Shown: in pieces, positions 5,040 through 17,759 of the stretch
Layout: each line of letters opens with the position of its first letter
Position numbering within the stretch: the first letter of the stretch is position 1
Origin: a virus
DNA length: 35,464 nt
Virus record (IMG/VR): IMGVR_UViG_3300011013_002565
Location: 1-35,464 of that record
Strand: one strand, 5' to 3'
The notes under the pieces: generated by a model
Told to the model about the DNA's origin: nothing
Database searches by the model: none
Seen by the model: the letters and a program-made list of their open reading frames with translations, nothing else
Program-made: the position numbers and the translations under genes

Positions 5040-5838
5040 AAATAAATTTTCCTGTTTTTGAATTACGAAATTGTCCAAGATTTTGAGAATGATTTATATT
5101 TTTAACAAACGGAATATATTCATAATCATTTTTAATCATTTTTTTTATATTTTCATATAAAACTTTATGATTTTCTTGTGATAAATGATTTCTTCTATAA
5201 TCTACAAAATCATAACCACCAGCAGTTTCTAAATCAACAAATTCTTGATGAGCAATATATCCCAATTCAGTTGGATATAAATAAAAATTTGAATTATTAA
5301 GTTGCGTAAGATTTAAAAAATTACCCATTCCACTTAATATTTTAATACCATAAGTACAAAATACAAATGTTTTCATATTTAATAATAAAGAATTCATATA
5401 AAGGAATCCTAAATTTTTAAAATTAGACCATTTTAATTCATCATGCATTGTTAAAAAGAAAAAATCAATTTCAGATTTAAATGTATCATAATATATTTTT
5501 TGTTTCGTTAAATTTGAATCTTCTGCCCACCAACTTTCTTTTTTATCAAAGTTCCAATTAATATGTGTAATAGTTTGGGGATCAGCATTATAGAAATGAA
5601 TTCTATCTTCTCCACTTAATAAAAAAATACAAATATACTCTTCTTTATTATTATCACTAGAAATAAAATTATAATATTCTTTAAATGAATAGTGAGGACC
5701 TGTACCAGATAAAGCATGATTTGTTATTTTATAATCTGATTTCAAAAATTCATACCACGTTGTTACATTTTTATTTTCGTATTTTCTGTCTGCAGGATCT
5801 GCAAAACTATCTCCAAATATTATTATTTTATCTTGCAT
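5032..5838 (-). CDS. SGNH/GDSL-hydrolase-like protein (tandem copy 1)
   Basis: 268 aa, first of three paralogs in transcription order. GDSF sits at residues 9-12 and LSGTGP near 43. A C-terminal RRNHLSQENH carries the likely catalytic His. It ends in GKFIYE, and the next copy's ATG lies within these codons. The start overlaps the upstream SPASM-like gene by 16 bp. The three copies share order of motifs and the C-terminal FIY(E/D) tail but differ in length and middle sequence, so this is an old duplication rather than a recent one. Confidence 0.72.
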   Translation of the reverse strand: MQDKIIIFGDSFADPADRKYENKNVTTWYEFLKSDYKITNHALSGTGPHYSFKEYYNFISSDNNKEEYICIFLLSGEDRIHFYNADPQTITHINWNFDKKESWWAEDSNLTKQKIYYDTFKSEIDFFFLTMHDELKWSNFKNLGFLYMNSLLLNMKTFVFCTYGIKILSGMGNFLNLTQLNNSNFYLYPTELGYIAHQEFVDLETAGGYDFVDYRRNHLSQENHKVLYENIKKMIKNDYEYIPFVKNINHSQNLGQFRNSKTGKFIYE

Positions 5839-6182
5839 AATGTTTTACAGCATTCGGGTAATGTTTTTTCTTTTTTCCAAAATTCTGGTTTAATATGTTC
5901 TCTCCATATTTTTAAGATATCTTTCAATTTATGTTTCTTTAAATTATTCCATTCCTTATCAAAACTATCTAATTTTTTATCTAAGAATCTTTTATTTAAT
6001 TGATGCTCTGCATGTAAAGCACAACAAGGATATACAGAAAAATCAGATGCTATTTCAACTTCTGCCCATTTTTTATGTTCATGCCATCCTATACAATAAA
6101 CCAAATCTTCAAATTCTTCAGGTAAATTATGTTGATTATTATTTATTTTTTTCGGCAAATTTTCATACAAAGAGGAGGACAT
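5823..6182 (-). CDS. Free-standing SPASM-like Cys-rich domain protein
   Basis: 119 aa. It contains YC-x-GW, then SVYPCC near residue 52 and a C-terminal PECCKTLC, the Cys spacing of SPASM/twitch auxiliary Fe-S cluster domains that normally follow a radical-SAM core in the same polypeptide. No CX3CX2C SAM-binding motif is present, so it cannot be a complete radical-SAM enzyme. The ATG lies 40 bp inside the preceding SPASM-like gene, in the -1 frame, with no clear Shine-Dalgarno of its own. It probably works in trans with one of the two upstream radical-SAM cores, or is made as a frameshift fusion. Confidence 0.65.
   Translation of the reverse strand: MSSSLYENLPKKINNNQHNLPEEFEDLVYCIGWHEHKKWAEVEIASDFSVYPCCALHAEHQLNKRFLDKKLDSFDKEWNNLKKHKLKDILKIWREHIKPEFWKKEKTLPECCKTLCKIK
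6143..6152 (-). other. A AAA AAA slippery heptamer directly before a TAA stop
   Basis: In the zero frame the SPASM-like gene ends CGA AAA AAA TAA. The heptamer A-AAA-AAA followed by a stop is a classic -1 frameshift site. A -1 slip would continue into the reading frame of the next SPASM-like gene (K-K-I-N-N-N). Seen in sequence; use as a frameshift site is inference, and no downstream stimulatory hairpin was identified. Confidence 0.45.
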
Positions 6183-6448
6183 GTTTTTTTATTTTTCCAA
6201 AGTTTTTCATTTAATACTTTATCATATTCTTTAAAAATATTATTTAAAGAATTGGTTTTAAGACTATTATCTATATGACTAATATGCTTATTAGGTTTTT
6301 TAGTTAAAGTGTGGTCCATATAATAATGACAACAAGGAAATACATTTAAATCTAAATCTATTTCATATTGACTCCAACTAGCAGATTCATAATTATAAAA
6401 ATCACATTTTATTTTAATTTCTTCTTCATTCTCACATCTTCTTTGCAT
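6143..6448 (-). CDS. Free-standing SPASM-like Cys-rich domain protein
   Basis: 101 aa. Cys residues are at the N-terminal IKC, in VFPCC near residues 38-39 and in C-PPLC-MKIC at the end, the pattern of SPASM auxiliary cluster domains. It lacks a radical-SAM core. It starts 40 bp inside the end of the upstream radical-SAM gene, in the -1 frame. Joining the two by a -1 shift would give a normal-looking radical-SAM/SPASM protein of about 330 aa. Whether it is translated alone, coupled, or fused is not decidable here. Confidence 0.65.
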   Translation of the reverse strand: MQRRCENEEEIKIKCDFYNYESASWSQYEIDLDLNVFPCCHYYMDHTLTKKPNKHISHIDNSLKTNSLNNIFKEYDKVLNEKLWKNKKTCPPLCMKICRKK

Positions 6449-7098
6449 ATGTAATAGTCTGTATTATGTTTTTTAAGTAATGTTTCACACTTAACTATAT
6501 TTTCATCATCAAGTTTATTAAAAGTTCGGCCATTAAATCTACATAATAACTTTAAGTCGTGTTTTTTTGCAAACATTATCACATCAAATAATTCTAAATA
6601 ATTGTGACTAAATATCGTATATTCCCATCTAGTAGGTCTATATTTTGCAGATTCAATCATATTTTTTAATGCAATATCAGTTCTCACATTAACTCTATAC
6701 ATTTGATTTGTTTCATCAGACAATCCATCAATACCAAACACAAAACGAGTTTTTCCATATCGTCTAAATAGATTTTTTATCCAAGTTGTATTTCTAAGTC
6801 CACCATTTGTATAAATTTCAACTCTATTAAACACACTTTCAGCTATACCAATTAATTGATCAATCTTAGGATGTAACAGAGGATCTCCAACTTCTCCACA
6901 AAATTTTGCAATTTGTATTTCGTATCGATTATTTTTTATAAAATTTATATTGTTTAATATTAAAAATTCGAAATCTTCAACTTTTAAATGTCTAAGTGGC
7001 AATTTACTTTTATTCATTGTTCTAAAACAACTAGGACAATCAGCATTACAATACGATGTAATTTCAAAATTGTATATAAAAGTTTCTGCAGGTAACAT
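6409..7098 (-). CDS. Radical SAM core protein
   Basis: 229 aa. The SAM-binding [4Fe-4S] motif CNADCPSC is at about residues 17-24, followed by a GEVGDPLLHP strand and IYTNGG (the GGE-like and beta-strand motifs of the partial TIM barrel). The SPASM region expected after the core is missing from this frame but is encoded next door in the -1 frame. The ATG forms TAATG with the stop of the upstream radical-SAM gene. Similarity of the two cores (SxxCNAxCPSC, GE.GDP, TNGG-RN) shows they are paralogs. Likely peptide- or small-molecule-modifying enzyme; substrate unknown. Confidence 0.82.
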   Translation of the reverse strand: MLPAETFIYNFEITSYCNADCPSCFRTMNKSKLPLRHLKVEDFEFLILNNINFIKNNRYEIQIAKFCGEVGDPLLHPKIDQLIGIAESVFNRVEIYTNGGLRNTTWIKNLFRRYGKTRFVFGIDGLSDETNQMYRVNVRTDIALKNMIESAKYRPTRWEYTIFSHNYLELFDVIMFAKKHDLKLLCRFNGRTFNKLDDENIVKCETLLKKHNTDYYICKEDVRMKKKLK

Positions 7099-16441: not shown

Positions 16442-16678
16442 TTATTTATTCTTTTTTCTCTTAAAGGAATAAAAGTTAAAATTCTTAGAATTTTTCTTTT
16501 TTATGTCTAAGTAGACAAGTATAAGTGCAAAAAATACACCCAAAATAACAAAAAGCTGAAGTGGAAGAAACACATCATTCCAACTCCAACTTATTTTATC
16601 TGTCAATTTTAAAATTACTAAAACCGATGTTATAAAACCCATTAATAACATCGGAATACGATAAATAAATATTTTCAT
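16442..16678 (-). CDS. Two-pass membrane protein
   Basis: 78 aa. Two hydrophobic helices (about residues 6-24 and 38-57) and a basic cytoplasmic-type tail (KKKNSKNFNFYSFKRKK). Overlaps the upstream gene by 4 bp. Holin-like size and layout, but it is distant from the hydrolase; role unknown. Confidence 0.6.
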   Translation of the reverse strand: MKIFIYRIPMLLMGFITSVLVILKLTDKISWSWNDVFLPLQLFVILGVFFALILVYLDIKKKNSKNFNFYSFKRKKNK

Positions 16679-16893
16679 CCAGCTTCTTTTTCTGCTCCTC
16701 TAGCATAAAAATCTTGATCTACTACAGGAGTGTTAAAACTCTTCATTTGACTTTCTTGCCGTACAGTCCTAGGTCGTTCTGGTATAATACATTCCAGTTT
16801 TGTGATCTTCCCACCCTTTTCCAAATATTCATTAATTTTGACATTCAGATCATCTCTTGATATTTTAAATTTCTTTTTATATTTTTTTGGCAT
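16675..16893 (-). CDS. Small basic hypothetical protein
   Basis: 72 aa, Lys/Arg-rich N-terminus (MPKKYKKKFKISRDDL) then a helical/beta part including ITKLECIIPERPRTVRQ. No family recognised. A TGCTATAAT promoter candidate lies just upstream. Confidence 0.6.
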   Translation of the reverse strand: MPKKYKKKFKISRDDLNVKINEYLEKGGKITKLECIIPERPRTVRQESQMKSFNTPVVDQDFYARGAEKEAG

Positions 16894-16944: not shown

Positions 16945-17193
16945 TTATCGCAAATTTTCCATCCAAAATCCAAGTCCTTTCTCTTTCAACTTGAATTGTA
17001 CATCCTCAAAAGTAAAAAATTTCTGTAATTCATCTTTACTTAAAAACAATTCACCGTTTCGATATAAATCAAATTGGCCCTTTGTTCCTTGTTCAATTTC
17101 GCATGTATCTAGTAAAGATTTATTAATATTAGCGGAAAGACTTTCTGCTTGTGGTCTATAATTTCAAGAACCACAATATTTAAGTACAAACAT
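16945..17193 (-). CDS. SelW/Rdx-family selenoprotein candidate (in-frame UGA)
   Basis: The frame runs from ATG at 17193 to TAA at 16945 with one in-frame TGA at codon 10; read as Sec the product is 82 aa. Residues 4-20 read LKYCGS-U-NYRPQAESL, the Rdx redox motif CxxU followed by the family's NYRPQA segment; later GQFDLYRNGELFLSK matches the conserved F-x-V...G-x-L-x-x-SK block of SelW. Rdx proteins have a thioredoxin-like fold and act in thiol/selenol redox chemistry. TGA stays a stop in many neighbouring genes, so the code is not reassigned. A good AGGGGAG site precedes the ATG. A hairpin with a G-first loop begins about 15 nt after the UGA. The gene follows the 144-aa gene by 27 bp. The alternative is a Cys-to-stop nonsense mutation. 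Confidence 0.8.
17131..17149 (-). promoter_or_regulatory. Bacterial SECIS-like hairpin
   Basis: Starting 15 nt after the UGA, the mRNA can pair A-GC-(A.C mismatch)-GAAA around a GUC loop with UUUC-C-GC-U. The loop begins with G and lies 22 nt after the UGA, inside the 16-37 nt range and with the G requirement described for bacterial SECIS elements that bind SelB. The stem is modest (7 pairs, one mismatch). Folding and SelB binding are predicted, not shown. Confidence 0.5.
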
Positions 17194-17220
17194 ACTCCCC
17201 TTTCGGATTTTAATTTATTT

Positions 17221-17655
17221 TTAATCCCAAAGACCTTGATAATGCTCTGCGAAAAGATTCAGACCTTCGTCAATCTTATCCCACCATGCTTTTCTTGCAT
17301 CTTTATAATCTACGTGGTGAGCAATAACATCATAGTCTTCATCTTTATCAATAATCATTGCAAATGCATCAATCATTTTCTGAAGTTTGTCCATCCATAG
17401 TTCTTCATAATACTTGCTCTCTGCATCACGATCCAAAATTTCTTCAAATGATCCTTGAGAATAATGCTCTGGATATGCTTCTGTTTCATCATAAGGGGTT
17501 GGATAACCAAAATGTGGTACACGTTCCCTTAAACGAACAAGAGCAGGATGAATAATATGAGCAAGAGTGGAATCTAAATTCCAAACATCATGATTATCAA
17601 TATTTACATGAAAGGCTCTGTTTTTTCTAGCAGGAGAACCCATCTTTACAAACAT
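17221..17655 (-). CDS. Conserved phage hypothetical protein
   Basis: 144 aa. NHDVWNLDSTLAHIIHPALVRLRE followed by a helical C-terminus ending in GLWD belongs to a pattern I have seen in many T4-like and other phages, function unknown. No catalytic motif. It directly precedes the selenoprotein candidate and follows tRNA-Asn. Confidence 0.7.
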   Translation of the reverse strand: MFVKMGSPARKNRAFHVNIDNHDVWNLDSTLAHIIHPALVRLRERVPHFGYPTPYDETEAYPEHYSQGSFEEILDRDAESKYYEELWMDKLQKMIDAFAMIIDKDEDYDVIAHHVDYKDARKAWWDKIDEGLNLFAEHYQGLWD

Positions 17656-17684: not shown

Positions 17685-17759
17685 TGGCTCCCTCGGCTGG
17701 ATTCGAACCAACGACAAGCAGATTAACAGTCTACCGTTCTACCACTGAACTACGAGGGA
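17685..17759 (-). tRNA. tRNA-Asn: tRNA-Asn (GTT)
   Basis: A full cloverleaf is visible: acceptor TCCCTCG/CGAGGGA, anticodon loop CTGTTAA (anticodon GTT), T-loop TTCGAAT, and encoded GCCA end. The 5' end abuts the stop codon of the 72-aa membrane gene, so processing from the mRNA is needed. Confidence 0.93.

Follow-up and report, generated by a model that had tools for sequence, protein, structure and literature searches.

The locus analysed here raises the question of whether a small viral reading frame interrupted by an in-frame TGA encodes a selenoprotein. The window (the whole stretch of viral DNA that was analysed, 35,464 nt) contains at positions 16945-17193 an 82-codon frame with a single internal TGA, which lies at codon 10 in the context YCGSUNYRPQA. 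Our analysis suggests, with a probability of about 0.92, that this is a genuine SelW-like (Rdx) selenoprotein gene of T4-superfamily phages, whose codon-10 UGA would be read as selenocysteine (Sec) by the host machinery by means of a hairpin. The original prediction had described the 82-codon frame with its single TGA at codon 10 and the pattern YCGS-x-NYRPQA, and all of these are seen in the sequence; its coordinates correspond exactly to ATG through TAA on the minus strand, which it had left unstated, and the G-x-L-x-x-SK block that it reported is present as GELFLSK. With U for the putative Sec, the translation is MFVLKYCGSUNYRPQAESLSANINKSLLDTCEIEQGTKGQFDLYRNGELFLSKDELQKFFTFEDVQFKLKEKGLGFWMENLR*, and it includes a redox motif of the CxxC/CxxU type, C7-G-S-U10 (CxxU). 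The ribosome-binding site of the gene is good. Homologs were collected by three IMG/VR scans, which retrieved 52 further viral contigs from 44 data sets. The features of the locus are the following:

16945 to 17193, minus strand (17193 to 16945): 82-codon Rdx/SelW-like gene from ATG to TAA, with the in-frame TGA at codon 10
17164 to 17166, minus strand: UGA codon, putative Sec, at the second redox position of CxxU; TGA in 45 of 52 viral homologs
17195 to 17203, minus strand: ribosome-binding site AAAGGGGAG, just 5' of the ATG, identified from the sequence
17132 to 17148, minus strand: 17-nt SECIS-like hairpin GCAGAAA-GUC-UUUCCGC
17221 to 17655, minus strand: upstream neighbour of 144 aa, PHROG 11543 of unknown function, in the same place in close relatives
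16675 to 16893, minus strand: downstream neighbour of 72 aa (c22), conserved in close relatives
17685 to 17759, minus strand: tRNA-Asn

To place the protein in a family, we compared it with profile and structure collections. It matches the Pfam Rdx family (PF10262; 33.1 bits, cut-off 22.6; E=6e-8), and a profile search matched all 33 family members to Rdx, which agrees with the assignment made originally. Among the NCBIfam models, the best one is NF041051 (SelTWH_Campy, E=8e-13), and the curated cut-offs were missed for both NF041051 (48.4 versus 88) and TIGR02174 (30.6 versus 34.2). The protein thus belongs to the Rdx superfamily but lies outside those narrower models. It has the domain and fold of the SelT/SelW/SelH family (TIGR02174, NF041051, PF10262) but lies below the NCBIfam cut-offs, and it represents a divergent subfamily relative to the SelT/SelW/SelH models. 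An AlphaFold model built from the 33 family members (pLDDT 90) has the topology beta-alpha-beta-beta-beta-alpha. When used in a PDB structure search, this model gave 21 matches at E<=0.001, all of them SelW-type proteins (the top ones being 2p0g, 2fa8, 2ojl, 2obk, 3dex and 2oka), indicating a predicted thioredoxin-like fold of the SelW type. The BFVD structure search gave no match at E<=0.001, and its best entries were ordinary thioredoxins and glutaredoxins.

A hairpin with the loop GUC had been proposed 22 nt after the UGA. It was found at 17148-17132, and the 22 nt are the distance from the UGA to the G of the loop. In the window hairpin, A at 17146 faces C at 17134, a single A.C mismatch, and the energy of -3.8 kcal/mol is not better than that of shuffles or synonymous recodings. 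This copy ranks among the weakest hairpins of the family; the mismatch characterises the window's own lineage, and most relatives have a perfect 7-bp stem, close homologs L015 and L034 being examples of a perfect stem. The window hairpin is weak alone, and the support for this element comes from the relatives. Every TGA-bearing copy in the alignment has a loop initiated by G (GUC, GGC, GUU or GUA) at a constant distance from the UGA, and 93.4% of the cells of the 7-bp stem are paired across the alignment. Changes on both sides of the stem were observed 8 times, compared with 1.9 in shuffles (0 of 500 shuffles were as high). Column pair 21-33 exchanges A-U, G-C and C-G, and both columns are wobble positions of four-fold degenerate codons. 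The alignment has 183 stem pairs, against 2000 synonymous recodings with phage codon usage that averaged 122 and never exceeded 139, a comparison of related sequences that is not a strict probability. These data indicate that the hairpin covaries at synonymous sites, far above the codon-usage expectation, and its conservation may in part be due to the relatedness of the sequences and to constraint on the protein. In a variant group (AGUUUG) the stem is shifted. A covariance model of the phage hairpins also detects the UGA sites of four Chloroflexota Sec-SelW genes (L111, L115, L116 and L122), with E about 0.001-0.004. The element has the layout of a bacterial SECIS, a hairpin 3' of the UGA with a G starting the apical loop, in a weaker form in the window copy.

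The UGA might also be read through as Trp, Cys or Arg by a near-cognate or suppressor tRNA, and not as Sec. Recoding of TGA as Trp is known in some phages, for example the zeta crAss-like ones (PMC12386605), but here TGA is an ordinary stop that terminates 20 of the 53 minus-strand ORFs of at least 70 aa in the window and is the terminal stop of the SelW-like gene itself in three relatives (L013, L026 and L027). As TGA is such a common stop, the genetic code is not reassigned, as had been stated originally, and code reassignment was ruled out. ARAGORN found no suppressor tRNA, and the four tRNAs of the window are Asn, Asp, Tyr and Gly. In addition, the Rdx homologs examined have Sec or Cys at the position of the phage UGA and the hairpin is placed where a bacterial SECIS would be expected, which makes insertion of another amino acid very unlikely. 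When the window and related contigs were scanned for UGA frames of further selenoproteins, all frames besides the Rdx gene were antisense, upstream of a start or shifted, and this gene is the sole convincing UGA frame in them.

If translation truly ended at the TGA, or if this codon had arisen by nonsense mutation, the gene would be broken or would encode a 9-aa peptide, the rest being a relic or internally started. The standard code ends the frame at codon 10 and a few relatives are without the UGA; against this, TGA is kept at this codon in 45 of the 52 viral contigs, and the protein is conserved before as well as after this codon. Cys codons, TAA and TAG are all absent from this site in the 52 homologs. 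Truncated or otherwise stopped homologs, which the original prediction had named as evidence for a nonsense mutation, were not found, and the other seven homologs have intact frames. The dN/dS after the UGA was about 0.09-0.26 in the closest group for comparisons with dS >0.25; near-identical pairs and a few short, divergent comparisons gave larger, imprecise values. The sequence 3' of the UGA is under purifying selection. No in-frame start after the UGA is shared by the homologs at one position, the first ATG, GTG or TTG being 8, 12, 15 or more codons away or absent within 50. A pseudogene or nonsense mutation was ruled out by the conservation and the dN/dS, and termination at codon 10 is extremely unlikely. 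The selenoprotein reading is consistent with the pattern of bacterial selenoproteins, with a conserved UGA at a Sec/Cys position followed by coding selection downstream.

In seven of the 52 homologs (L168, L039, L169, L171, L173, L178 and L179) an in-frame deletion of one or two codons has removed the UGA, with no Cys gained; these homologs show three sequence types, CSS--YY, CKN--YY and CGR-KY. They retain the first Cys and the remaining protein and are distributed on at least two separate branches. The CSS--YY and CKN--YY types are close to copies that contain Sec and come from phages sharing their gene neighbourhood, and the CGR-KY type is similar to the L046-L048 group. The absence of a Cys replacement in these seven homologs indicates that the redox centre is dispensable in some phages. 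In the Sec-less allele L178 one stem pair is broken, with an energy of -1.6 kcal/mol versus -5.2 kcal/mol in sister copies, whereas the stem of L043 is still stable; hairpin decay after UGA loss is thus seen only partly.

Analysis of the gene content showed that window proteins match phage exonuclease, endolysin, head-protease-like and DenV-like families. The related contig G014 (84 kb) carries a T4-type terminase, sheath, portal and major head protein (capsid) together with the SelW-like gene. Judged by individual proteins, the closest annotated phages include Phage C48C1, Pelagibacter phages and cyanophages, in every case with less than 60% identity; for C48C1 (Kyanoviridae) the record gives no host and no paper was found. 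The carriers are uncultivated T4-like phages whose relatives suggest a marine origin. The chance that the gene is cellular and comes from mis-assigned contigs is negligible: marine bacteria do have SelW-like selenoproteins in abundance (PMC2398784, PMC1088965) and one copy is on a contig binned with a Chloroflexota MAG, but dozens of viral contigs carry the gene with phage genes around it (one of these contigs includes terminase, portal, capsid and sheath), the contig in the MAG belongs to this phage as well, and the phage copies group in a single clade that is separate from the bacterial copies compared. We also found an RNR-like gene in several relatives and a glutaredoxin in three. The SelW-like gene as a glutaredoxin replacement is unsupported, since three relatives carry both. 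The glutaredoxin of T4-like phages (PF00462) is likewise a small thioredoxin-fold redox protein, but it is Cys-based and belongs to another family. C48C1 carries a peroxiredoxin gene (OQ984149.1 48338-48931, L140), and Prx and SelW side by side were reported on GOS reads (PMC2398784).

Searches for the Sec machinery revealed no SelB over the cut-off on the phage contigs tested and no tRNA-Sec over the cut-off in the window or the relatives tested, most of which are fragments. Weak tRNA-Sec matches on phage contigs were below the gathering score, and those checked were ordinary tRNAs. Because the tested contigs have neither SelB nor tRNA-Sec, host machinery would have to decode the UGA, and the proposed dependence on the host agrees with this result. 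The MAG 'Chloroflexi bacterium NAT137' holds a contig with a SelW-like protein 94% identical to that of the window. This contig is matched by 41 window ORFs, most of them with more than 85% identity, which shows that it belongs to a phage of the same type. Another window-like gene, at 95%, lies on a second contig in this bin. In the NAT137 MAG, the one candidate host checked, SelB (318 bits) and tRNA-Sec (61.8 bits) occur together with a Sec-SelW of the MAG itself, and the SelB cut-off was passed by 132 of the 147 genomes of its Chloroflexota order (the order of G016), which is rich in Sec users. Phage contigs are often binned wrongly, and the GC content is about 31-33% for the phage and about 40% for the MAG; given both points, the Chloroflexota link is circumstantial and at most makes a Sec-using host plausible. 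Chloroflexota homologs score up to 37 bits only, and a scan of genome contigs for a close bacterial ancestor gave only the MAG phage contig and a chance-like match. The same MAG includes L097 (G016:C1, 161 kb), which has 28-30% GC where sampled and window-like SGNH-type and radical-SAM proteins, and is probably another large phage.

The family, the fold, the conservation across the UGA, the conserved covarying hairpin and the phage context were established by computation, and the tests available support the original reading as a whole. Sec incorporation we infer from these features and from the bacterial SelB/SECIS mechanism, the established route of Sec insertion. During infection, host SelB with Sec-tRNA would read the codon-10 UGA as Sec, directed by the hairpin 3' of it; the phage would bring only the cis elements (UGA and hairpin), and selA, selB, selC and selD would come from the host. 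SelB and SECIS elements pair in a species-specific way. The product would be small, with a thioredoxin fold and a redox centre of the CxxU type. It most likely acts as a thiol/selenol-disulfide oxidoreductase in infection, a redox role suggested by its family, and may support reductive metabolism or limit oxidative damage.

No phage selenoprotein or phage SelW was found in the open-licence literature, a search that could miss a subscription paper, and neither INPHARED (tblastn) nor PHROGs gave a match to the SelW-like protein, in line with the earlier remark that no phage SelW-type selenoprotein has been described. SelW-like proteins are among the most abundant selenoproteins of marine bacteria (Sargasso Sea, GOS; PMC1088965, PMC2398784). 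The word phage is absent from these two papers, which describe the genes as bacterial, and a later survey has few or no viral sequences in families beyond those it names. The phage gene resembles the marine bacterial ones in the Rdx family, the CxxU motif, the UGA with a SECIS-like hairpin and the apical-loop G, and differs from them in belonging to T4-like phages and forming its own clade. A tRNA-Sec was reported in Basilisk-like Bacillus phages (PMC6145125); both are phage components of the Sec pathway, theirs being a tRNA gene without a described selenoprotein and the present one a selenoprotein gene without tRNA-Sec.

This would be the first phage selenoprotein of which we found any trace in the open-licence literature. 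If the reading is true, phages exploit a costly, context-dependent host recoding that relies on selenium and host sel genes, and infection is tied to the selenium status of the host. Such genes are truncated at the UGA by standard gene callers, a possible reason for their absence from phage databases. We lean towards a wider view in which a widespread T4-like lineage uses Sec, part of the ocean SelW-like pool may be viral, and individual phages keep Sec or drop it by a clean in-frame deletion of the UGA codon, perhaps in step with the ability of the host to decode Sec. The natural Sec+ and Sec- alleles make the retention of selenocysteine by viruses a testable question.

Elsewhere in the window, at 5823-7098 on the minus strand, a radical-SAM ORF is followed by two overlapping out-of-frame Cys-rich ORFs, an arrangement that may reflect split genes or programmed frameshifting; the same layout is present in G002 and G003.
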